From contig CP070638.1 in the NCBI GenBank assembly GCA_020354025.1, positions 1,322,388 to 1,378,141 of the forward strand: 55,754 nucleotides of DNA. The letters are read 5' to 3'. Position numbers and translations under genes: made by a program. Below are positions 5,064-53,360 of the stretch, piece by piece; position 1 is the stretch's first letter; each line of letters begins with the position of its first letter. A model generated the notes under the pieces. It had not been told where the DNA came from, did no database searches, and saw only the letters and a program-made list of their open reading frames with translations. The DNA is from Fidelibacterota bacterium. GTDB lineage: Bacteria > Fidelibacterota > Marinisomatia > SCGC-AAA003-L08 > TS1B11.

Positions 5064-5095
5064 TTGGCTTTATATAGTAAATGGCATTACCTTTA
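5064..5095 (+). promoter_or_regulatory. Bacteroidota-type promoter, copy A
   Basis: TTG (5064-5066), a 21-base spacer, then TACCTTTA (5088-5095), close to the -33 TTTG / -7 TAnnTTTG consensus of Bacteroidota primary sigma factors. The surrounding ~75 bases are recognisably the same as those before the next two paralogues, which supports function. The predicted transcript start lies about 35-40 bases before the ATG at 5138. Confidence 0.6.
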
Positions 5096-5137
5096 TATAG
5101 CCCTATCAATTATTATCATAAATGTCACGAGGTGACA

Positions 5138-6307
5138 ATGCACGGTTTCCACTATACCAGCCGGTCTCTTATGGGCTTGATCCTCGCCGGTATAGTACTC
5201 TTCCACGTGAGTCCTCTACCAGCTCAGAATATACCCATGGCCGTGATAGAGTTGGAGGGAGTCGGAATATCGCGGGCCGTAGCAACCACCCTGACTGATA
5301 GACTGCGCAGTGAGCTCCTCCGTTTGGGCACCTTCGATGTGATCGCACGGGGCAAGATGGAGAACACACTTGCCGGGCATTACTTCCGACAGACTGGTTG
5401 TATTACTGATGAATGCCTGATAAGAGCTGGTGGTCTTGTGGGTGCCTGGCTGGTAGCGGGTGGTCGTATCAGCCGGAAAGGGACCGTGTACACCGTCTCC
5501 GCCCGATTGATTGATGTTGAGACCGGGCAGGTACTGGGGGTCTCTCATTTTGAACTGCAAGGCGGCATTGATGACCTGCTGAACTTCGGAATGAAGCGGG
5601 CAGCACTGCTGCTGTCAGGTGACCAGGAGGGCGCCCGGCAATTGGCCGAACAGCAGATATATCAGCCTGCTACGCCGGCAACTCGTACCGGGAGTACCTC
5701 CGCCCGGCAGAGACAATTGGCTGTATCGGCGCGTCCCGCCGATACCAAGCCTCGCCGGTGGCAATCACGCATTGGAGCATGGGAAAGCGAATATGACTTC
5801 TGTTTTTCATTGCCTTTCTCATACAATTTAGAGGGTGACCTTAACCTGGGGAGTACTAGGCTACAACGAGTTGTCTCGGGAGGGTACCTCTACCGTAGCT
5901 ATTATGAGGGGGAATATGAGGACTATAGGGAGAGTGAAGGTCTCCTGTATGGTATGCTGGAGTTCCACAAGAATTGGAGTTCGAGCACAGGCAACTCGGG
6001 AGTATCCGCTTATTTGGGTATTGGATGTGGTTCTGGTTTTTATGAGTCGTATGATGAAGAGTATTACTACGTGGACGGGGATGGATATGATGAGATTGTT
6101 TCCTTCCTATTTACGGTTGGCGCTCAGGCTAGAGCCCGGCTGCTCCCGGTTCTCCCGACCTTGGTCGGCGATATCAGTCTGGTAGTTACTCCAAATTATG
6201 GAGCATCGACCGTCCTGACGGTTGGCGGGCAGGGCAGCTTCGTCCAGTTGGCTTCCGTATGGGGTTTTATATTTTTCATGATCTTATCGGCCGAGGGAGG
6301 CTTCTAG
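5138..6307 (+). CDS. CsgG-like secreted protein, tandem paralogue 1
   Basis: 389 residues. A signal peptide (LMGLILAGIVLFHVSPLPAQ) precedes a ~150-residue domain of the CsgG/TolB-N/LpoB type (NIPMAVIELEGVGIS, RLRSELLRLGTFDVIARG, TVSARLIDVETGQVLGVS). Related domains occur in envelope proteins such as curli secretion CsgG and PBP activator LpoB. A conserved cysteine pair sits in GCITDECL. The C-terminal half alternates hydrophobic strands with Tyr/Asp/Glu-rich loops and looks like a small outer-membrane beta-barrel. The ATG at 5138 was chosen over 5081 because GAGGTGAC precedes it, it gives the signal peptide, and the paralogues start at the same point. It is the most divergent copy (IARG replaces VxRG). 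Exact function unknown. Confidence 0.75.
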   Translation: MHGFHYTSRSLMGLILAGIVLFHVSPLPAQNIPMAVIELEGVGISRAVATTLTDRLRSELLRLGTFDVIARGKMENTLAGHYFRQTGCITDECLIRAGGLVGAWLVAGGRISRKGTVYTVSARLIDVETGQVLGVSHFELQGGIDDLLNFGMKRAALLLSGDQEGARQLAEQQIYQPATPATRTGSTSARQRQLAVSARPADTKPRRWQSRIGAWESEYDFCFSLPFSYNLEGDLNLGSTRLQRVVSGGYLYRSYYEGEYEDYRESEGLLYGMLEFHKNWSSSTGNSGVSAYLGIGCGSGFYESYDEEYYYVDGDGYDEIVSFLFTVGAQARARLLPVLPTLVGDISLVVTPNYGASTVLTVGGQGSFVQLASVWGFIFFMILSAEGGF

Positions 6308-6391
6308 AGTAATACTGCAGCAAATCATCTCTATTGTGTTACTGATATGATCATTATACTTTGCTCACGACAACGTTTCACCATCTCCCCC

Positions 6392-6423
6392 TTTGGCTTT
6401 GTCCACATAAGTCATTACCTTTA
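6392..6423 (+). promoter_or_regulatory. Bacteroidota-type promoter, copy B
   Basis: TTTG (6392-6395), exactly 20 bases, then TACCTTTA (6416-6423). The sequence between and after the boxes (CATAAGTCATTACC, then ATTCTCACGTA) is shared with copy C. The predicted start of transcription is ~35 bases before the ATG at 6467. Confidence 0.65.
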
Positions 6424-6466
6424 GCCACCCATCATCAGCGATTCTCACGTATATCATGAGGAGACA

Positions 6467-7624
6467 ATGACACGTCCACGTCGCACGATTCGTTATTATT
6501 TGGGCTTTTTACTGACGGGTACGTTCCTGTTCCAGGTGACGCTCCTCCCCGCCCAGAGTATACCTATTGCTGTGCTGGACTTTGACGGCTTTGGCATATC
6601 TCAGACCGAGGCTATCGCCCTCTCTAATCGGTTGCGAAATGAGCTCTTCAAGCTGGGTACCTTTGAGGTGGTTGACCGGGGGATGATGGAGAGTATCCTG
6701 GCTGAGCAGGACTTCCAGATGGCGGGGTGTACCTCGAATGAATGCCTGGTTGAGGTGGGCCAGCTTCTGGGTGCCCGGCAGATGGTGGGCGGAAGCATCA
6801 GCAAGGTGGGGGAGACCTTCACGGTTTCGGCCCGAATTGTCGATGTGGAGACCGGGAAGGTGCTCCGGGTCTCGGATTACGACCTGCAGGGTGATCTGGA
6901 CCTACTGCTTACACGGGGGATGGGTGTAGTGGCCGCCCGCCTGGGGGCCGCCGAAGCGCCACGGGCCCCGGACAAACCTCCGTCAGTGCGTGAAACCGAT
7001 CTGGGAGCCATCTCCCCGCCAGCGACTTCCGTCCAAACCCACCCCTGGCAGCCGCTCATCGGATTGACTCCCCGAGGCCAGGAGTCCTTATCAATGTTGC
7101 TTAGCTATGACATCCCCGCGAAGTGGCGCCTGTGGCTGGTCGATATACAGCCCTTTCTCTCCATTGGCTCCCTGCACCAGGGCTATTACGCCAGTGATTT
7201 CGATATAGCTGACAGCAGCGGGTGGTCCGAAGATGAATATGAGGACATGTATTATGGTCTGTTGGGCGTTGCCGCCCGGTGGGCCACCCCTGACGAAAGC
7301 CTGCGCCTGGCGGCCTATATTGCAACCGGAGCGGGCATCTTTGATTATTATTACTACTTTGAAAGTTATCAGGAGTTTAGCGGAATATATGAAACGCTCG
7401 ATTATAGCTCCGATGAAGACGGGGGGCTTGGCTGGATCTTTACGACTGGGGCTCAGGTAGTTGCAAAACTGCCGGTCATCCCCACCTTGGTTATCGATAC
7501 CCGCTTCTTATTGACACCGGTCTTGGGTCCTTCCATGGCCGTATCGCTGGGAATGCAGCTGAATACCTGGCAGGTGGGGATTGTTGCCGGTGGTTTTCTC
7601 ATGATACTTATTGGTGCTGATTAG
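6467..7624 (+). CDS. CsgG-like secreted protein, tandem paralogue 2
   Basis: 385 residues with the architecture of its neighbours: signal peptide ending FQVTLLPAQ, a CsgG/TolB-N-like domain (SIPIAVLDFDGFGIS, RLRNELFKLGTFEVVDRG, GGSISKVGETFTVSARIVDVETGK), the cysteine pair GCTSNECL, a Pro-rich linker near residues 165-190, and a Tyr/Asp-rich barrel-like C-terminus. The start codon follows GAGGAGAC at a good distance. The N-terminal domain is closer to paralogue 3 than to paralogue 1, while the C-terminal halves have diverged strongly. This suggests that the conserved half has a common envelope role and the barrel half is specialised. The substrate or partner cannot be told from sequence. Confidence 0.75.
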   Translation: MTRPRRTIRYYLGFLLTGTFLFQVTLLPAQSIPIAVLDFDGFGISQTEAIALSNRLRNELFKLGTFEVVDRGMMESILAEQDFQMAGCTSNECLVEVGQLLGARQMVGGSISKVGETFTVSARIVDVETGKVLRVSDYDLQGDLDLLLTRGMGVVAARLGAAEAPRAPDKPPSVRETDLGAISPPATSVQTHPWQPLIGLTPRGQESLSMLLSYDIPAKWRLWLVDIQPFLSIGSLHQGYYASDFDIADSSGWSEDEYEDMYYGLLGVAARWATPDESLRLAAYIATGAGIFDYYYYFESYQEFSGIYETLDYSSDEDGGLGWIFTTGAQVVAKLPVIPTLVIDTRFLLTPVLGPSMAVSLGMQLNTWQVGIVAGGFLMILIGAD

Positions 7625-7647
7625 ATCATTCCCTTCATATCTCGTAC

Positions 7648-7678
7648 TTGGCTTTGTACGCATAAGTCATTACCTTTG
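7648..7678 (+). promoter_or_regulatory. Bacteroidota-type promoter, copy C
   Basis: TTG (7648-7650), exactly 20 bases, then TACCTTTG (7671-7678), a full match to TAnnTTTG. It is nearly identical to copy B over about 70 bases, including the leader up to the start codon, so the duplication unit included promoter and gene. Confidence 0.7.
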
Positions 7679-7720
7679 CCTACCCTCATCAGCAATTCTC
7701 ACGTAAGTCAAGAGGTAACG

Positions 7721-8731
7721 ATGACACGTCCACGCTTAATAATGAAGTCCTATTCGAGCCTACTACTTGCCGGTGGCGTCCTGTTCCAGATGACATTCCT
7801 CCCCGCCCAGAATATCCCCATCGCAGTCATGGATTTTGACGGCCGGGGGATCAGCGATATCGAGGCCTCCGCCCTGACAGACCGCCTGCGCAATGAGCTC
7901 TTCCGGCTGGGTGCCTTCGAGGTGGTCGAACGCGGTTTGATGGAGAATATCCTCACCGAGCAGGACTTCCAGCTGACCGGCTGCACCTCCAACGAGTGCC
8001 TGGTGGAAGTGGGCCGCCTGCTGGGTGCCCGGCAGATCGTGGGGGGGAGCATAAGTAAAGTCGGCGGAACCTTCACCGTCTCGGCCCGGCTGGTGGATGT
8101 CGAGACCGGGAAAGTGCTGGGGGTTTCGGACTTTGACCTGCGCGGCGAGCTTGATGACATGCTGACGACCGGAATGCAGCAGGTAGCGGTTATGTTATCG
8201 GGAGAGCAGGCCGTTGCGGAACGGCAAGTCCAGACCTTCGAACCTCCCCGGCCCAGGCGGGCAGTTGTTTCGGGGCGTACCCCTTGGCAGGTACTCATCG
8301 GTATTCCTGCCGGGGAGGGAGGATATGGCGCCGAGGCGTCCAAGTTTATCGGTAGCGGCTGGCCCATAGGACCGGTTCACCTGCGACCGGCGTTCTCTGG
8401 AGGGCTTCTTGATCGGTGGTGGGAAGACACGGAGTACGAAGAATACTACTACGATTTCCGAGGGTACCTGTCCCTGACAGGGCATGGGGTTATGGAAAGG
8501 GATCGCATCGGTGGAAGTATATATCTAGGGCTTGGCCTGAGTGTGGGTGAGTATTGGGAGGAAGTTGAGGGGGATGATTGGTACAGCGATGAAATGGAAT
8601 TGCTGCTCTCCTTGGGCGCGCAACTGAGGCTGCGATTCATCGACACGCTTCATCTCCTGGCCGACACCCGGATAGTCTCTACCTCCAACTACGGGGCATC
8701 CTTCATGTTTCAAGTCGGGCTCCAGCGTTAG
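7721..8731 (+). CDS. CsgG-like secreted protein, tandem paralogue 3
   Basis: 336 residues. A signal peptide (SSLLLAGGVLFQMTFLPAQ) is followed by the CsgG/TolB-N-like domain (NIPIAVMDFDGRGIS, NELFRLGAFEVVERG, GCTSNECLVEVGRLLGARQ, TVSARLVDVETGKVLGVS) and a shorter barrel-like C-terminus with YEEYYYDF and a final amphipathic strand. The ATG at 7721 was taken rather than an earlier in-frame ATG at 7676, because AGAGGTAAC precedes it and the N-terminus MTRPR matches paralogue 2. The leader and promoter are duplicated as well. No known substrate; likely periplasmic or outer-membrane. Confidence 0.75.
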   Translation: MTRPRLIMKSYSSLLLAGGVLFQMTFLPAQNIPIAVMDFDGRGISDIEASALTDRLRNELFRLGAFEVVERGLMENILTEQDFQLTGCTSNECLVEVGRLLGARQIVGGSISKVGGTFTVSARLVDVETGKVLGVSDFDLRGELDDMLTTGMQQVAVMLSGEQAVAERQVQTFEPPRPRRAVVSGRTPWQVLIGIPAGEGGYGAEASKFIGSGWPIGPVHLRPAFSGGLLDRWWEDTEYEEYYYDFRGYLSLTGHGVMERDRIGGSIYLGLGLSVGEYWEEVEGDDWYSDEMELLLSLGAQLRLRFIDTLHLLADTRIVSTSNYGASFMFQVGLQR

Positions 8732-36309: not shown

Positions 36310-37104
36310 TCAGATTTGCGAATACGAAGCAGGCCGCAGGAAGCTGACATTGATATTGGAAACCGTATCGGCGTAGACCGGATTAGCACTGAGCTCTTTC
36401 CACTCCGCACTGCTACTGAATTTCTGCCAGGTCTCATCGCGTTGATCCATATCATCGAAAACGACCATATAGGTAAGGTTCGGTAGATTCGATCCTATCA
36501 GGGTCTCGCCGAAGAAAACCGGCTGCAACCCGATCTCGAGGAAAAGGGCAATCTCACCACCGGCGTTGAACATCTCGATCTTGTTATCTGCCTTCTTTTT
36601 ACTATGACTTTCGTAGGTGCGTAGCTCGAAGATGCGCGGTTTCTTCTTCGCTGTTGCTGCCGGCAATACTAACCTCGGCATCTGATCGAAAGCTACCATC
36701 AGTGAGCTATCGATGCGCACATAGGCTGGATCGGACAACGGTGCGTCCAGGAAGGAAGCGCCAGCCCGTTGGTACCTGGCATCCGCCGCCAGGCGCTCAT
36801 CGATACTGGAAAAGGACTCAAGTGACTTGTGTGGAAGAAGGACGTAGACCGTTGGGCGGTTGGGGCCATACATAACATTGAAGACACCAACCGGCTCGAT
36901 CCCATTACGGTTCAGCGCAGGTAGAGCAGCATCGCGTAGAAAATCGTCCAGGCGCTTCCTTGCCACGCGCGAGAGCAAATAGTACTGCCTCAGTTCATAG
37001 TATTCGGGATCCGACTTTCCTTTCCGGGTCGTGGCAGCGGTGATGGTTTTCAGGGGTGCTGCCCCTGCTAATGCTGTGGCCGCTATAAAATCGCGTCGCT
37101 TCAT
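36310..37104 (-). CDS. Tat-exported NIPSNAP-domain protein
   Basis: 264 residues. A twin-arginine signal (MKRRDFIAATALAGAAP) marks export of a folded protein. Two ferredoxin-like NIPSNAP domains follow: YYELRQYYLLSRVARKRLDD near residue 35 and KPRIFELRTYESHSKKKADN near residue 155, each opening with the 'ELRxY' motif. NIPSNAP proteins are dimeric alpha-beta-barrel-like proteins, often found with sugar or aromatic catabolism genes, and of unclear chemistry. AGAGGAG precedes the ATG. It is first in the NIPSNAP-dehydrogenase-LarA set (37-base gap). Confidence 0.87.
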   Translation of the reverse strand: MKRRDFIAATALAGAAPLKTITAATTRKGKSDPEYYELRQYYLLSRVARKRLDDFLRDAALPALNRNGIEPVGVFNVMYGPNRPTVYVLLPHKSLESFSSIDERLAADARYQRAGASFLDAPLSDPAYVRIDSSLMVAFDQMPRLVLPAATAKKKPRIFELRTYESHSKKKADNKIEMFNAGGEIALFLEIGLQPVFFGETLIGSNLPNLTYMVVFDDMDQRDETWQKFSSSAEWKELSANPVYADTVSNINVSFLRPASYSQI

Positions 37105-45719: not shown

Positions 45720-45880
45720 CTACTTCAGCAGCACTCCCGCCTACGGGCCCCGCCTGCGGCCCCGCCTACGGCGGACTACTCTGACGCTTACTTAAGTAAA
45801 CGCATCTTGATGGACCTGGTGTACTCCGGTGTGACCACCCGGGCGAGGTAGATGCCGGAGGCTTGATCTTTACCCTGGAT
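45720..45880 (-). pseudogene. Relics of two C-terminal sorting-domain gene ends
   Basis: Minus strand 45880-45788 translates as LHIQGKDQASGIYLARV then VTPEYTRSIKMRLLK and a TAA stop. It closely matches the last residues of the M4 peptidase (SGLYIARLVTPEYTKSIKMV). Next to it, 45734-45720 encodes VLLK-stop identical to the M4 end, separated by a GC-rich spacer and GGACTACTCTGACG. Only these 3' ends remain: the genes themselves have been lost, replaced upstream by the start of the DUF1593 gene. Confidence 0.75.
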
Positions 45881-45961
45881 ATGCAACAGGGATTCTTAAC
45901 TTCAAGGGTGGGCCAAAGAACAAGGGCCGGTCATATCAGTATGAGTCAAAAGGAGAAAACA

Positions 45962-47548
45962 ATGGGTTGGAAAAAGGGTGTTCTGCAGCGCCATTCGGGT
46001 CTGCTTGCCATTGGAGTGGTTATTATATACTCTTTTGCCAGTTGCACGAGTACAATGCCTTCCCAGGAGCGGATCCGCCCGCGCATCGTGGTCACGACTG
46101 ATCCCGAGTGCGACGACTCGAATTCACTCGTCCGCTTTTTACTCTACAGCACCGATTTCCAGGTGGAAGGGCTGATCTATGCCAGCAGCCAATTCCACTG
46201 GAAAGGCGACGGCAGGGGAACCAAGTGGTTTGTAGAAGGGCGGGAATATACGCGCTTCGGGTTGAATATGGGGCCAATGGAATCGTGGCGCTGGCCTGAA
46301 GGCGACAGCCACATTGAAGATGCCGTCGAAGTCTACGGGCGAGTGTATCCGAATCTGAAGGCGCATGACCCGGACTACCCAAGTCCCGGGGAACTCGAGT
46401 CGAAAATCCGGTACGGGAATATTGAGTTCGATGGGGATATCTCCAAGGATTCGCCGGGATCCGATTTAATCAAGTCACTGATGCTCGATGATGTCCCGGG
46501 ACCGTTGTATATCACAGCGTGTGGCGGACAGAGCACGATCGCGCGAGCCCTCAAGTCTATCCAGGAGCAATACGAGAATACGCCTGAGTGGGAGAGCATC
46601 AGAGAGAAGGTCTCGAGCAAAGTGGTTTTGCTTCCATCAGGTGACCAGGACGATGTGTATGCGAATTATATCAGGCCCAATTGGCCCGAAATCGATTACC
46701 GGCAGTTCAGTAGTGGAGCAGGCTTCGGCTATGGCGCCCAATCAAGGGCAACGGCCGAGAATGCCGTCTACTATACCTCGTCCTGGATGAATGAGCATAT
46801 CTCCAGTCAAGGGCCGCTGGGAGCTTTCTACCGGGTCTGGGGCGACGGCAAGCAGATGGTGGAGGGCGATATTTTCGACTATTTCGGTTTCTCGGGCTAC
46901 ACGGACGACGAACTAAGGGAGATGGGGTACATAGTGTGGTTGCCGGTCCAAGAGAAAGGCTCCTGGTTGGGAGAAGGAGACACCCCTACTTTTATGAACC
47001 TGCTGGACAATGGACTGCGCGCCTACGAAGATGCCTCGTACGGGGGGTGGGGTGGATACCGGCTAACGGCCTCAGCCGCCGGCCTTTCTCCCTGGCAGGG
47101 CGACTTTGGCGGCGCATCTCTCCAAGGAGCACAAGGAGCAACCGGCCCCGGTTATCCGGATTTCTTCCAGGAAGCCCAGAACGATTTTGTGACCCGCCTC
47201 CATTGGTCGGTAACACCCGAATATGCAGAGGCAAATCATGAGCCTGAAGCAAGCATTGAAGGGCCTCTCAGCGTCACGGCTCATCCGGGGGAAACGGTTA
47301 GGCTTGCAGGGGAAGTTTCGGACCCGGACGGGGACCCCGTCTCAATCAAATGGTGGGAGTTCCAGGCAGCGGATAGCTATGAGGGCGAGGTCACAATTGC
47401 GAGTCCAACATCGGCTTCGACGGATGTGGTTGTCCCCGCCGATGCCGAGCCTGGACAAACGATCCACATGATCCTGGAAGTGACCGATAATGCCCCACTA
47501 CCGCTCACACGGTATCAGCGAGTGATTATTACCGTTCAGGGGGAATAA
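45962..47548 (+). CDS. DUF1593 nucleoside-hydrolase-like lipoprotein
   Basis: 528 residues from ATG 45962 (AAAGGAG upstream). Lipoprotein signal (LLAIGVVIIYSFASC). Nucleoside-hydrolase-like domain with the calcium-binding Asp cluster in VVTTDPECDDSNSLVRFL and the family block GLIYASSQFHWKGDG. A second block LYITACGGQSTIARAL follows. The C-terminal ~100 residues are an Ig-like sandwich (VTAHPGETVRLAGEVSDPDG), as in Sde182-type cellulose-binding relatives. Probably hydrolyses a glycoside or N-glycosidic bond in the periplasm; true substrate unknown. Proximity to the deglycosidase pair downstream hints at glycoside use. Confidence 0.87.
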   Translation: MGWKKGVLQRHSGLLAIGVVIIYSFASCTSTMPSQERIRPRIVVTTDPECDDSNSLVRFLLYSTDFQVEGLIYASSQFHWKGDGRGTKWFVEGREYTRFGLNMGPMESWRWPEGDSHIEDAVEVYGRVYPNLKAHDPDYPSPGELESKIRYGNIEFDGDISKDSPGSDLIKSLMLDDVPGPLYITACGGQSTIARALKSIQEQYENTPEWESIREKVSSKVVLLPSGDQDDVYANYIRPNWPEIDYRQFSSGAGFGYGAQSRATAENAVYYTSSWMNEHISSQGPLGAFYRVWGDGKQMVEGDIFDYFGFSGYTDDELREMGYIVWLPVQEKGSWLGEGDTPTFMNLLDNGLRAYEDASYGGWGGYRLTASAAGLSPWQGDFGGASLQGAQGATGPGYPDFFQEAQNDFVTRLHWSVTPEYAEANHEPEASIEGPLSVTAHPGETVRLAGEVSDPDGDPVSIKWWEFQAADSYEGEVTIASPTSASTDVVVPADAEPGQTIHMILEVTDNAPLPLTRYQRVIITVQGE

Positions 47549-47629
47549 ACTGCTACGATGCCAGGGCACGGTGGTGGTGACGGAGTAGGCTCTAGAGGAG
47601 AGGGAAGGGATGGGGAATCACTCATCCCT

Positions 47630-47653
47630 CCCGACGCATGCGTTGGGATTTTT
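47630..47653 (+). terminator. Terminator candidate after the DUF1593 gene
   Basis: CCCGACGCATGCGTTGGG stem (one G-T pair) followed by ATTTTTG, 82 bases after the stop codon. The same CCTCCCGACGC phrase belongs to the dispersed hairpin family. Confidence 0.55.
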
Positions 47654-47903: not shown

Positions 47904-48929
47904 ATGAATGAAAACGAGAAAAAGGAAGACCAGCGTGATACGGCTTTGTCGCGGCGCAATTTCTTAAAGATGACCGCAGGTGCAGCCACACTTGCATCCA
48001 TACCCACTTCAGGTCTTTTAACGGCTTGTCGTCCGGCGGGAGACAGCGGTGCAGCCCCAACACCTGAGTTCAACGGAAAACCCAAACGGGGTGTTTCCAT
48101 TTACAGCTATTCGGGTGTATATGGAGTTACCATGACTCTCGAGGACTGCCTTGCCGATATATATGACATGGAAGCCGAAGGCCTGGAAATTCTGGCAAAC
48201 GGACATATCCCCAACTATCCTAATCCTACCGATGAATGGGTAGAGCAATGGTTTGCTATTTTGGACAAATACCAGATCATACCTGTTGAATATGGACACT
48301 GGGTTGACTCAAGGCTTCATGAGGGACGTGAGCTTACTTCACAGGAGTCCTATGATATGATTGTACGTGACATCAAACTTGCGAACAGATTGGGATTCAA
48401 AATCGGACGCACCAAATTGGGAGTTATTGATGAGATACTGACACCGGTAAAGAACTGGCAGGAGTTCATCGAGATGGCACTTCCGGTCGCTGAGGAGTAT
48501 GATTTTAAAATGTGCCCCGAGATCCATATGCCCACGGTTCTGAAATCAAAAATGGTCGATGACTATGTTGAATTCATCGAAAGGACCGGGACCAAGAACT
48601 TCGGGATTAACATTGATTTTGGAGTTTTCGCCAAAAGAGAGGGAAGGAGGATGATGCCGGGTGTCAGTAATGAACCCAGCGCTCCCGAGGATATGATACC
48701 TCTTCTGCCATATACTTATGCTTGTCACGCAAAATTCACCAACATGTCGGATGATCTAATAGAGACAACCATACCATATGACAGAATAATTGAAATTCTG
48801 TTGGAACACAAGTGGGAGGGCTATCTGCTCAGTGAGTATGAAGGACAAAAGAAAGATGTCCCGGATTACGCATCAGACCAGCTTCGCAGGCAACATGTTA
48901 TGATGAAACGCTATCTGGGCGAAGTATAA
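47904..48929 (+). CDS. Tat-exported sugar phosphate isomerase/epimerase-like protein; candidate C-glycoside deglycosidase alpha subunit
   Basis: 341 residues from ATG 47904 (GGGAGGAAG upstream). A twin-arginine signal (SRRNFLKM, residues 16-23) is followed by a hydrophobic run and Cys42 in GLLTAC, so the protein may be a Tat-exported lipoprotein. The rest is a xylose-isomerase-like TIM barrel. The expected metal ligands are visible: Glu206 (CPEIH), Asp238 (NIDFG), His275 (YACHAKF) and a Glu at 311/313 (LLSEYEG). The DUF6379-like gene 44 bases downstream is the known partner type (beta subunit) of C-glycoside deglycosidases, which cleave C-C glycosidic bonds after 3-oxidation of the sugar. Confidence 0.8.
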   Translation: MNENEKKEDQRDTALSRRNFLKMTAGAATLASIPTSGLLTACRPAGDSGAAPTPEFNGKPKRGVSIYSYSGVYGVTMTLEDCLADIYDMEAEGLEILANGHIPNYPNPTDEWVEQWFAILDKYQIIPVEYGHWVDSRLHEGRELTSQESYDMIVRDIKLANRLGFKIGRTKLGVIDEILTPVKNWQEFIEMALPVAEEYDFKMCPEIHMPTVLKSKMVDDYVEFIERTGTKNFGINIDFGVFAKREGRRMMPGVSNEPSAPEDMIPLLPYTYACHAKFTNMSDDLIETTIPYDRIIEILLEHKWEGYLLSEYEGQKKDVPDYASDQLRRQHVMMKRYLGEV

Positions 48930-48973
48930 TTATTTAATTACAGCTACAGTATTAAATACAGGAGATCAATAAA

Positions 48974-49384
48974 ATGCTGGAATTCCCAAATATACAATCG
49001 AGAGGATTCAGGAATATTTCAGAGGGTAATAATATTACTGGATTCCAGGTGCCTGTAAGACTCACACATTATAGAGGAGTGTGGCTTTCACAGTTAAGAC
49101 CGGCCACAGTTACCGTCGATGGGGAAAAGTTTGAAAATGAACAAATAACTTGGGTGATTGATGGGAAATCCTATGCACAGACGGATTTGCAGAATTATCC
49201 GAATATACAGTGGCACAGTCTTACTCCGGCTATTCTGAAGATAGAAAAACCGGGTGGTCTGCCACTGGGCATTCATGATGTCCAAGTGCAATTTGCGTAC
49301 AGCTCATCGTATCTGCCCCCAAGAATGGACCTGGGATTCGGTGCGGCTCAACCATATCAAAGAACGATGGTACTGGCAAGATAA
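48974..49384 (+). CDS. DUF6379-like protein; candidate C-glycoside deglycosidase beta subunit
   Basis: 136 residues forming a single beta-sandwich. Family blocks: SRGFRNISEGNNITGFQVPV, YRGVWLSQLRPATVTVDGEK, and IEKPGGLPLGIHDVQVQF. No signal peptide or lipobox is present, in contrast to its partner. AGGAG lies at the right distance before ATG 48974. In characterised C-deglycosidases the beta subunit binds the alpha TIM barrel and shapes the active site. The pair as alpha then beta in one transcript supports that role here. AT-rich relative to the peptidase gene beyond. The gene order and similarity are seen; activity is inferred. Confidence 0.8.
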   Translation: MLEFPNIQSRGFRNISEGNNITGFQVPVRLTHYRGVWLSQLRPATVTVDGEKFENEQITWVIDGKSYAQTDLQNYPNIQWHSLTPAILKIEKPGGLPLGIHDVQVQFAYSSSYLPPRMDLGFGAAQPYQRTMVLAR

Positions 49385-49475
49385 GTAGTTGAACCACAAG
49401 TTCTCATAATACAGAATCTCTCTGAAACTGACCAGTCCCCATTCTTTGTACTGTCTTTAAAGTCAGGGGCTTGGA

Positions 49476-49566
49476 TTTACCCTCCCTCCATCCGCTGCCT
49501 GCCCCCTCATTCCCCGTATCCGGTTAAACGGCTTTCTTTCTGACTTTCCCCTACTTCAGCAGCACC
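49476..49566. repeat. 3' flank of the M4 peptidase gene, duplicated at 53558
   Basis: TTTACCCTCCCTCCATCCGC, then CATTCCCCGTATCCGGTTAA and CTTTCCCCTACTTCAGCAGC, matches 53558-53647 over ~90 bases with few differences. It comprises the last five codons of the peptidase (on the minus strand) and the DNA just beyond its stop. Confidence 0.8.
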
Positions 49567-51833
49567 ATCTTGATGGACTTGGTGTACTCGGGCGTTACTA
49601 AGCGGGCGATATATAGCCCGCTTGGCACGTCGCTGCCTGCAGCGTTCCTCCCATTCCATACCACCGCGTGGTAGCCAGGCTCTAGATGCTCATCAACTAG
49701 CCGCACAACCTCCCTGCCAAGCAGGTCATAGACCACCAGTCGGGTGCGGATCGGCTCAGGCAGGCCGAAGGGAATGGTGATATTGGGATTGAAGGGGTTG
49801 GGGTAGCCGTGGGAAAGACTATAGACTGAGGGGATAGATTCTTCCTCGTCAGCAACAGGCTGTCCTTCAATGGTTTGAGCTGCCGGGGCCATCGCAACGA
49901 CTTTACCCAATGGCGAACCACCACCCTGAGCAGCTATGGCGTGGACCTTGCTGCCGGTACTTGCCGTGAAACCTGGCTTTAAATGAACACTGTCGCCCGC
50001 AAAAAACAGCACCTGAGCTCCACTTTGGATCGTAACAGATGGTCCCGCTGTGATTCTGTTATTTGCCAAATATATCACAGTGTCAGAAATGGTCTCATTT
50101 TGTAGAGTAATGTAATCCGGTATACTCGGGCCGACACCTACCGCATACCAGGCGTTCAGCGTCTGGGTTACCTCAACGCCGCCATATAAATCACTGGCAG
50201 CCCAAATAGCGCCTTCCCGAGAATCCGCGTACTCGGAAGAACTCCATAAATACCGGATGTGGTTGCGGTAAGCAATGGCGGCGGCTTTGTCCTTGCCGAT
50301 GCCTATTACCGAATAACTGTCATTATTCTCATTGGTCCCGCTGCCTCCTTCGGCCAGCAGATAGAACCAATAGTTTTGAACGCCTGAATTTGTGTGTACA
50401 AGTACACTTTGATTGGGTCCTGTGTACCAAAAAGGATCATTAGTCCCATATGTATCAGGATCATTTTCAGTGTGGGGATCAGACATATTACGTAACCTGC
50501 CACCAGCTGGTATAAAATCTTCACCTATGTAGTAGTCCCCTGAAGAAGCTCCTTCGACATAAAATTCTACCATTGTCCCATGAATATCCGCAAATGATTC
50601 ATCAAGAGCACCTGATTCATTGATCATTTCCAAATCCGCCGAATATTGATCAACGCCGTGGGAAAACTCATGGCCAACAACATCTAATGATACAAGATCG
50701 CTCCAAACAGCATTCCCATCCCCTAAAATGAGAACTTCAAGCACACCATCCCACCTGGCGTTCGCTCGGTTAGGCCAATTTGCGTACACATTAATTTCGG
50801 CACCATTCCCGTCGTAACTATCACGGCCATAAGGAGACGCGGCAGTCATGTCGTAAGTCATTTCAGCCGCCCAGTGAGCGCTAGCGCCGACTTGTGGGCC
50901 GCCAGCATTCCATACATTATCAGTGTCGGTATATTCATCTCCAGTTATGCTCACCTTATAAGTATAAGTATTGAGTTCTCGTGTGTGAATCCCATCCCCA
51001 CGTGAATCATCAACCAGTATGTAATCATCGGTCGGTGTTCGATACTCTGTTATGATGCTTCGTGAGGGGGGACTGTTATAAAGTGTGGATACGGTTCCAA
51101 CCGCAGAGTGAATCAGAGGCAATCTTTCGAAAACCTCTCCTGTTTGAGCATCAACATAAACTGCCTGTACATCAAAGGGAATAAGCGAATGGATGGTAAA
51201 TTTATATGCCAGTCGATAATGATCAGCATTCAGGGCCGTGTCTGATGCAGATCTCCTGAGCACCAGATCTGCTTTGGGATAAAAGGTAGCAGTAGAATCA
51301 TTCTTGCGTTCCTTGAGCTCCGCTTCCCACTCCGGGCTTTCCCACATGTAAGTCTTGGCGCTAAAGGCGTTCAGCGCGGAGTCCAGCGCCACCTCCCCGG
51401 AAATTGACGGCTGAATACTCACATCGAGATCGGTGACTATATTCCCATTTGTCCTCGCCGCATAGCCGTCCCGGGCATGGACCAGCATCTCGGCGCCTTC
51501 GACTTTTATCCCTTGGTAGGTCTGCTGGAACCTATAATGGGTGAATCCCAGGTTATCCTCTTCGGTACGATAAAGGTCCATCCGGTCATCTTTTCCAAGC
51601 TTGAACTCTGCTCTATACTCCTCGAATATATCCATGGGTGAGATCTGGCTATCGTAACGGAGTACGAGCCACTTCGATCCATGAGGCGTCACAATAATGT
51701 CTGCCACTTTTTCGGCCACGAAGTCCGGGGCAAGTCCGATGCTTCTTGCAGCTTCGTGATTTGGACCTTGCCCATAGGCAAATACGTGTAACACCACGAT
51801 AATTATTATAGCTACAATCTGGAGATTTCTCAT
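49551..51833 (-). CDS. Secreted M4 (thermolysin-like) metallopeptidase with type A sorting domain
   Basis: 760 residues. Signal peptide (IVAIIIIVVLHVFAYG), FTP/PepSY propeptide (~30-220, for example FTHYRFQQTYQGIKVEGAEM), then an M4 catalytic domain. The domain has zinc-binding HEFSH in LDVVGHEFSHGVDQYS (~residue 390), third ligand in NESGALDESFADIHG, and downstream His in SVLVHTNSGVQNYWFY. The C-terminus has a beta linker and a ~80-residue domain starting SHGYPNPFNPNITIPFGLP and ending YTKSIKMVLLK, the sorting domain used by type IX secretion or a FlgD-like anchor. Extracellular protein digestion. GGGGTG precedes the ATG. Confidence 0.93.
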   Translation of the reverse strand: MRNLQIVAIIIIVVLHVFAYGQGPNHEAARSIGLAPDFVAEKVADIIVTPHGSKWLVLRYDSQISPMDIFEEYRAEFKLGKDDRMDLYRTEEDNLGFTHYRFQQTYQGIKVEGAEMLVHARDGYAARTNGNIVTDLDVSIQPSISGEVALDSALNAFSAKTYMWESPEWEAELKERKNDSTATFYPKADLVLRRSASDTALNADHYRLAYKFTIHSLIPFDVQAVYVDAQTGEVFERLPLIHSAVGTVSTLYNSPPSRSIITEYRTPTDDYILVDDSRGDGIHTRELNTYTYKVSITGDEYTDTDNVWNAGGPQVGASAHWAAEMTYDMTAASPYGRDSYDGNGAEINVYANWPNRANARWDGVLEVLILGDGNAVWSDLVSLDVVGHEFSHGVDQYSADLEMINESGALDESFADIHGTMVEFYVEGASSGDYYIGEDFIPAGGRLRNMSDPHTENDPDTYGTNDPFWYTGPNQSVLVHTNSGVQNYWFYLLAEGGSGTNENNDSYSVIGIGKDKAAAIAYRNHIRYLWSSSEYADSREGAIWAASDLYGGVEVTQTLNAWYAVGVGPSIPDYITLQNETISDTVIYLANNRITAGPSVTIQSGAQVLFFAGDSVHLKPGFTASTGSKVHAIAAQGGGSPLGKVVAMAPAAQTIEGQPVADEEESIPSVYSLSHGYPNPFNPNITIPFGLPEPIRTRLVVYDLLGREVVRLVDEHLEPGYHAVVWNGRNAAGSDVPSGLYIARLVTPEYTKSIKMVLLK

Positions 51834-51912
51834 TTTTCACCCCGGTTATTGCATGAATTAATCGCCATACTTCCCTAGCGGGCTATCTATCGCATTGTTG
51901 ATTTTAATATAA

Positions 51913-52353
51913 TCACTTTTCCCATATAAGGATGGTACCATATCTTTCATATTGCGATTGACCGACTAAGCGGACCCCCGAGGTTATGAGCCTGGAATCC
52001 GCTACCTCCACAAACAGCGTGTCTTGTTCTTTGCTGAAAGCATAATTATGTACAAGATTTTCATGATTTGTGGAATGCACAACCAATATCGAATCAGAAA
52101 TCAGATTATACGTGCCGGATGAATAACCTTGTGCTCCCCCCCCAATATATCCTGAGCTGAAATCAAGTTGATAACTTTCGTCCTTACTGAATCGCCAAGT
52201 TGCTTGATAGCTGAAGTCATCATCAGCTGGTATATCCACTATCCATAACCCAACGAGCGGATTATCGAGATTCTGGTTGTTATCGTCAGTGCAACTAGTT
52301 AGTACAACCATGGAAGAAAACACAATTAGTAGAAAAAAAATTCTGTTGTTCAT
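51913..52353 (-). CDS. Small lipoprotein with lipocalin-like fold pattern
   Basis: 146 residues. Lipoprotein signal (IFFLLIVFSSMVVLTSC, lipobox LTSC) and an Asp/Asn-rich tether. The remaining ~110 residues resemble one small beta-barrel: LVGLWIVDIPADDDF, YQATWRFSKDESYQLDFSSG, GTYNLISDSILVVHST. The 'GxW' at the start of the first strand is typical of lipocalin-like/DUF domains in Bacteroidota. Sits between the GIGTTSP protein (56 bases upstream) and the M4 peptidase (79 bases downstream) on the same strand, so the three may form one transcript. Confidence 0.7.
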   Translation of the reverse strand: MNNRIFFLLIVFSSMVVLTSCTDDNNQNLDNPLVGLWIVDIPADDDFSYQATWRFSKDESYQLDFSSGYIGGGAQGYSSGTYNLISDSILVVHSTNHENLVHNYAFSKEQDTLFVEVADSRLITSGVRLVGQSQYERYGTILIWEK

Positions 52354-52409
52354 TGTTACAGCCCCTTAGCCCGATCTATAGCATCAGTTTAGATACTAGT
52401 TTTAGTTTA

Positions 52410-53360
52410 TTAAATCTCTAGCTTTGCCACCCGCGCTTTCAGCGCCCCGTTCTCTTTCTTTAACTCAATTATATACAAAGTTAACTCCTCGACCTTCTGC
52501 AGGAGCTTTGCTTGCATATCACCCAAGGATACGCCATTTCCCTCAACCTCGGAGGCGGAAGGCATATCCGGTAGGTGCTTATGCTCATTGGTGTACGTTT
52601 CCAGCTCATCAAGCGTTCTTAAATAATAGTCATCGTCAAAGACAAAATCAGGCCAGCCGCTATTGGTCACAACCACTTCCTTAGCAGTTATAATACCGTT
52701 GACGGCGAGCTTACTCTGCGGGCTAGTCGTTCCGATGCCGACTTTGCCTGCTGGGTCCAAGATAATGTGCTTGCTATTCTTTGTGCGAATGTAAAGGTTT
52801 TTCTCGTTAGACCCCGGATCATCTGCAATAATATAATTCCCTATATTATCTCCATAAATCGCGATGAAATTATCCCCTCCCGATCCTCGTGAAAAACGCG
52901 CAATAGGTGTCCCTGTAGGAGATGTGTCTAGCGTTCCGCCATCAACATCAAGCTTTGCCCCCGGACTTTCCGTCCCGATGCCAACTTTGCCGTTGTCCAG
53001 AATAACGAACTGTGTTCCACCTGCCTGGTTGTGATGAACGTTTATAGCACCCCCCTCAGACTGGAGATATAACGTTGATTCTCCACCGTTATTTCTCGCG
53101 ATAAATTCGTTATTATCCATGACAAGGTTGGTTCCATCCTGGTTGCCGATGATAATATATCCGCTTCCATCGCTTAATGAGGCGTCGCTGCCGCCTTCGA
53201 TGTGGAGCTTCTGTTTTGGGGCGTTCGTTCCGACGCCAACTTTGCCAGTGCGGTAAATAGGATCAGTGGTGTTGCTAGCGCCATCCCATTGTTGCCCGAA
53301 GATAAGATTGGGCAGCAGGGATATCATGATCAGGCACGCCATGAGGTAATGCATTTTCAT
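52410..53360 (-). CDS. Secreted GIGTTSP-repeat (tail-fibre-like) surface protein with C-terminal coiled coil
   Basis: 316 residues. Signal peptide (ACLIMISLLPNLIFG). Three copies of the 'GKVGIGTxxPxxKLxVxG' repeat: GKVGVGTNAPKQKLHIEG, GKVGIGTESPGAKLDVDG, GKVGIGTTSPQSKLAVNG. The C-terminal module WPDFVFDDDYYLRTLDELE, then KHLPDMPSASEVEGNGVSLG, leads to a coiled coil (KLLQKVEELTLYIIELKKEN). This layout is common in Bacteroidota exported proteins of unknown role and resembles phage tail-fibre trimers with an intramolecular chaperone-like end. Probably a trimeric surface protein. Confidence 0.82.
   Translation of the reverse strand: MKMHYLMACLIMISLLPNLIFGQQWDGASNTTDPIYRTGKVGVGTNAPKQKLHIEGGSDASLSDGSGYIIIGNQDGTNLVMDNNEFIARNNGGESTLYLQSEGGAINVHHNQAGGTQFVILDNGKVGIGTESPGAKLDVDGGTLDTSPTGTPIARFSRGSGGDNFIAIYGDNIGNYIIADDPGSNEKNLYIRTKNSKHIILDPAGKVGIGTTSPQSKLAVNGIITAKEVVVTNSGWPDFVFDDDYYLRTLDELETYTNEHKHLPDMPSASEVEGNGVSLGDMQAKLLQKVEELTLYIIELKKENGALKARVAKLEI

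Follow-up and report, generated by a model that had tools for sequence, protein, structure and literature searches.

The locus described here raises the question of whether a C-glycoside deglycosidase (CGD) may act outside the cytoplasm when only one of its two subunits carries an export signal. In the window, i.e., the whole stretch of 55,754 nucleotides that was analysed, a gene for a CGD alpha subunit is followed by one for a beta subunit (Table 1), and an earlier note on this DNA, which placed the pair at 47904-49384, had its limits exactly. Known CGDs have been studied as soluble enzymes without a signal, and no exported CGD was found in the open-access literature.

Table 1. Positions in the window of the alpha-beta pair, its motifs and its flanking signals.
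Feature	Position	Strand	Basis or remark
Hairpin resembling a terminator, with T-run, lying after the Sde182-like lipoprotein gene and before the alpha-beta unit	47629..47648	+	scan
CGD alpha subunit (TIM barrel, AP_endonuc_2), 341 aa	47904..48929	+	ATG 47904, TAA 48929
Tat signal peptide: SRRNFLK (residues 16-22), h-region of low hydrophobicity, lipobox LTAC, Cys42 predicted lipid site	47904..48029	+	
PEIHM motif: E206 (metal ligand) and H208 (catalytic base)	48516..48530	+	alignment A1; ligand list from PMC8563793
NIDF motif: metal ligand D238	48609..48620	+	alignment
CHAKF motif: metal ligands H275, K277	48723..48737	+	alignment
SEYEG motif: metal ligand E311	48831..48845	+	alignment
Shine-Dalgarno-like AGGAG ahead of beta	48960..48964	+	direct reading
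CGD beta subunit (CGDB), signal-less, 136 aa	48974..49384	+	

The alpha gene product had been proposed as a TIM-barrel subunit of a CGD, and this assignment is borne out by the Pfam profile scan (AP_endonuc_2, E=1.5e-10) and by the solved structures: the nearest chain, 7bvs_A (DfgA of EuCGD), matches residues 59-340 at 8.6e-110, and the next seven are 8qrz, 7bvr and five more CGD alpha subunits. In AgCGD2 the Mn ligands are E147, D179, H269, K271 and E305, and the catalytic base is H149 (PMC8563793); mapped by motif, they correspond to E206, D238, H275, K277, E311 and H208 of the window alpha subunit, in which the full CGD metal set (1His/2Glu/1Asp/1Lys) is present together with the catalytic His. 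All six residues are invariant in alignment A1 (20/20 alpha subunits), which was also used to build the AlphaFold model. The model is confident from about residue 54 onward, with residues 1-53 below 50, as expected for a signal followed by a linker; its top Foldseek match is again DfgA (TM by target 0.91 and 0.95). The earlier note had made its reading depend on the metal ligands lying together in a model, and the superposition on DfgA, along with sequence identity, indicates that they do.

The N-terminus of the alpha subunit reads MNENEKKEDQRDTALSRRNFLKMTAGAATLASIPTSGLLTAC. Against TIGR01409 (TAT_signal_seq) it scores above the cut-off (17.6 vs 16.7 bits), and slightly below that of Pfam TAT_signal (20.9 vs 22.7); the possible lipobox noticed previously is also present, with LTAC before Cys42 at the end of the h-region, lipidation itself being only predicted. 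The h-region, taken as the most hydrophobic 14-residue stretch of each signal, distinguishes these signals from those of the Sec type: its mean hydrophobicity is 1.60 in CGD alpha signals (n=11) and likewise 1.60 in the RR Tat proteins of the window's genome, vs 2.54 in 13 Sec signals of that genome, selected by eye, with zero overlap between CGD alpha and Sec values, and neither that choice nor one Tat entry (L051), measured over the wrong stretch, affects the separation. The genome also encodes TatC (7.1e-62).

The beta subunit matches Pfam CGDB (PF19906) at 5.7e-31 and the DfgB chain 7bvs_B at 4.8e-35; its previous description as “DUF6379-like” had the family right, but the Pfam name is now CGDB, and “DUF6379” was found in PDB entry names. 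Its N-terminus, MLEFPNIQSRGFRN, bears no signal, and an in-frame stop codon a few codons upstream of the ATG indicates that none was missed, so that a Tat signal on alpha only, as first read, is confirmed. Toward the C-terminus, around the beta7-beta8 loop, the subunit is shorter than DfgB; since this loop shapes the aglycone pocket, the aglycone, and with it the substrate, may differ from that of EuCGD. The alpha-beta pair is probably its own transcription unit. The gene downstream of beta lies on the opposite strand, and upstream there is the hairpin of Table 1, weak when taken alone (one found by the scan vs a mean of 2.1 in shuffles). No dehydrogenase adjoins the pair in the window's genome. 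The Sde182-like protein encoded on the same strand upstream of alpha (45863-47548) has a nucleoside-hydrolase-like domain and a Sec-type lipoprotein signal.

Among the characterised enzymes, EuCGD (DfgAB) from Eubacterium cellulosolvens (7bvs, 7dre) combines, like the window pair, a TIM-barrel alpha subunit with a beta-sandwich beta subunit, and its metal ligands and base are identical; however, the solved DfgA chain lacks a signal, DfgB is the longer one in the C-terminal loop region, and the partner enzyme is the oxidoreductase DfgE, no exported partner having been described. PuCGD (DgpBC, 7bvr) and AgCGD2 (CarBC, 7dnm) share family and active-site residues with the window pair, but they have no signal, and their alpha subunits contain an extra lid domain that is missing from both EuCGD and the window alpha subunit.

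The signal recurs among relatives, which were drawn from the genome collection and from a CGDB search across about 1,000 genomes. Eleven alpha subunits have a Tat-like signal, three with a canonical RR (window, L022 and L118) and the others with RK, RE or RN; apart from the window, the signal-bearing ones found among these relatives are confined to Bacteroidota. Two of the pairs (L002 and L118) belong to one genome, another genome holds three (L004/L120) and a further one (L119), and the remaining are L003, L022, L116 and L117. The beta subunit is signal-less in 10/10 pairs in which its N-terminus can be read (L003, the eleventh, stops inside alpha), and it is kept beside alpha, with a conserved sequence, in all readable cases. 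In a scan of ten of the alpha subunits, L117 being left out, those with RK, RE or RN gave no score against TIGR01409, and their export by Tat, judged from the motif, is less certain. No signal was seen on the alpha subunits of the Firmicutes, Gammaproteobacteria and Chloroflexi relatives, nor on those of L013 and L137 on the Bacteroidota side. On the tree, the signal requires five changes, at least three of which are forced by well-supported branches, so that signals were gained or lost repeatedly; the window alpha subunit clusters with L002 and L117 (99/97). The alpha gene of the latter (L117:6353-7354, genome G498) is split into two reading frames, by sequencing error or by decay, and the two pieces were joined solely to build the tree. 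At L116:33-952, two distinct CGDB genes stand in tandem ahead of one signal-bearing alpha gene.

TatC is encoded in 6/6 Bacteroidota genomes with a signal-bearing alpha subunit, and it was not found in the genome of Flectobacillus (L013), which may be incomplete and whose alpha subunit has no signal; that TatC presence tracks the signal is suggestive only, resting on this single negative case. Relatives in the same lineage with an alpha subunit devoid of the signal had been named as evidence against export. Within the phylum of the window's genome there is none, CGDB being absent from all its other genomes (1/245 positive, the window's own), whereas among Bacteroidota one close relative, that from Flectobacillus, is such a case.

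The pair looks acquired. Its uniqueness in the phylum, the position of Bacteroidota as nearest relatives (77% identity) and a GC content of 45% vs 54% for the window (2.6th percentile) are most simply read as a transfer from Bacteroidota. The low GC goes on downstream, at 49384-53360 (M4 peptidase 49%, 51913 gene 41%), so that the acquired segment may exceed the pair.

A C3-oxidising dehydrogenase with a Tat signal, which the earlier note had proposed to look for in the genome, exists there in the form of homologues, and in two related loci it lies directly beside the pair. In L116 and L118, the signal-bearing pairs adjoin a Gfo/Idh/MocA gene with a Tat signal (SRRNFLG or SRRGFLG), related to the solved dehydrogenases 8tdf and 8tdh. 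The closest homologues in the window's genome are 58-59% identical and two others 43-51%, one of the latter, with the signal SRRDFV, matching 8tdf at 9e-127. The genome has 39 Gfo/Idh/MocA matches, with RR signals in 15/30 examined, besides 10 PF06439 matches and several TIM barrels with Tat signals; its Tat dehydrogenases include the genes at C1:1466033-1467385, C1:1467519-1468880 and C1:1087646. A PF06439 lipoprotein gene is also found near the L117 pair. We take PF06439, 8tdf, 8tdh and 8tcr to be parts of one alternative glycan-breakdown pathway, that of gut Bacteroidota attributed to Nasseri et al. 2024, to which PMC12550630 refers, and in which 3-keto-glycosides are reportedly handled by C3 oxidation, elimination, hydration and reduction. 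The PDB title of 8tcr, 3-keto-beta-glucopyranoside-1,2-lyase AL1, agrees with this assignment. Compared with that pathway (AL1 lyase 8tcr, 8tda, dehydrogenases 8tdf and 8tdh), the window's genome has export-signalled homologues of the dehydrogenase and of the PF06439 enzyme and an export-signalled related TIM barrel; unlike the CGD, the TIM-barrel lyase of the gut pathway has no CGDB partner. Receptor genes (SusC/SusD or TonB-receptor-like) were dropped as evidence of periplasmic action, being found also beside the signal-less CGDs L013, L005 and L008.

A stretch of about 40 kb (G000:C1:1457785-1497551, L122-L124) is dense in Tat-signal genes, including Gfo/Idh/MocA oxidoreductases and TIM barrels. 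Within it, a lipoprotein ORF of about 500 codons (1464442-1465941; L081, L090) encodes a 3p6l-like TIM barrel and, fused to it, a PF06439 domain (3-keto-disaccharide hydrolase); it lies beside two Tat-signal dehydrogenases. The same stretch contains four tandem look-alike genes (1476149-1480323), one of which was scanned and gave no Pfam match, and a Pfam sulfatase (1490147-1491580) flanked by similar genes.

The account that we favour, with reasonable though far from full confidence, is that of a Tat-exported CGD whose beta subunit hitchhikes and which acts on 3-keto glycosides outside the cytoplasm. The alpha subunit would fold, take up its metal and bind beta while still in the cytoplasm; the SRRNFLK signal would then carry the folded heterodimer through Tat, and lipidation at Cys42 would tether the complex in the periplasm. 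There, glycosides would be oxidised at C3 by a separate exported Gfo/Idh/MocA dehydrogenase and cleaved by the Mn-dependent alpha-beta enzyme through beta-elimination, giving the aglycone and a 2-hydroxy-3-keto-glycal for other exported enzymes of the 3-keto pathway to process. Hitchhiking would be the simplest way of exporting alpha and beta without separating them, and the pattern of a signal on alpha and none on beta fits all ten readable pairs. Precedents are PaoABC (PMC4273604) and an FAD glucose dehydrogenase with a hitchhiker subunit (PMC6719666), in which one subunit likewise has a signal and its partner none; these are redox enzymes whose co-export is proven or accepted, while the window pair would be a metal-dependent lyase whose export is deduced from its genes. 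EuCGD is an alpha4-beta4 octamer (PMC8563793), a size that is large for Tat and counts against this route, unless assembly follows export. The wider proposal, namely that the preassembled heterodimer hitchhikes through Tat as the lyase module of a periplasmic 3-keto pathway, and that Bacteroidota and, through gene transfer, another phylum cleave C-C glycosidic bonds outside the cytoplasm, is put forward tentatively, as we would stop just short of giving it an even chance.

Could the pair instead remain in the cytoplasm, the N-terminal extension of alpha being a vestigial or inefficient signal inherited via gene transfer? The main paper on characterised CGDs (PMC8563793) mentions no export signal, beta is signal-less, several relatives have an RK, RE or RN motif, and the low GC and uniqueness in the phylum make the pair probably a fairly recent arrival, all of which would suit such a reading; we nevertheless regard it as unlikely, given the full consensus, lipobox and Tat-like h-region of the window signal, the presence of signals in three or more distinct regions of the tree, and the export-signalled 3-keto enzymes that neighbour related pairs. 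Export of alpha alone, to work in the periplasm without beta as a lyase or isomerase of 3-keto-glycosides, appears quite improbable. Beta-less TIM-barrel lyases do exist (AtOGE, PMC10628242; AL1, 8tcr), and further Tat TIM barrels of the genome lack a beta partner; however, the retention of beta next to alpha, an active site that in CGDs lies between the subunits (PMC8563793), and an identity, by structural alignment, of 57% to DfgA vs 14% to AL1 all speak for a two-subunit enzyme.

The substrate is a separate matter, compatible with export of the heterodimer: the pair might act mainly on 3-keto O-glycosides, C-C cleavage being incidental, which is possible but, in our opinion, less likely than not. 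PuCGE splits 3-keto O- and C-glucosides alike (PMC10628242), and related pairs sit among enzymes of general 3-keto-glycoside breakdown; on the other hand, the nearest solved relative, EuCGD, is a C-glycoside cleaver, and AtOGE, which is O-specific, has no sequence relationship to it (PMC10628242). C-C cleavage by the pair is likely but, considering the behaviour of PuCGE, need not be exclusive.

If the Tat-exported heterodimer is real, Gram-negative bacteria would be able to strip sugars from C-glycosides ahead of inner-membrane transport, and the CGD heterodimer would join the modules of the 3-keto-glycoside pathway. The pair would also represent a natural and testable Tat hitchhiker, with a metal-dependent lyase as cargo instead of a redox enzyme.

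The CGDB match in G969 (4.9e-7) was rejected as a CGD beta subunit, as it is the N-terminal domain of an HMG-CoA reductase. At L138:5009-6550 the profile matches the N-terminal domain of an HMG-CoA reductase at 1.3e-6, a similarity suggesting that PF25653 and the CGD beta subunit are related domains. Elsewhere in the window, a NIPSNAP-domain protein (36310-37104) matches Pfam TAT_signal with a score short of the cut-off, and three consecutive genes (5081-8731) give TolB_N, CsgG or LpoB-like matches.
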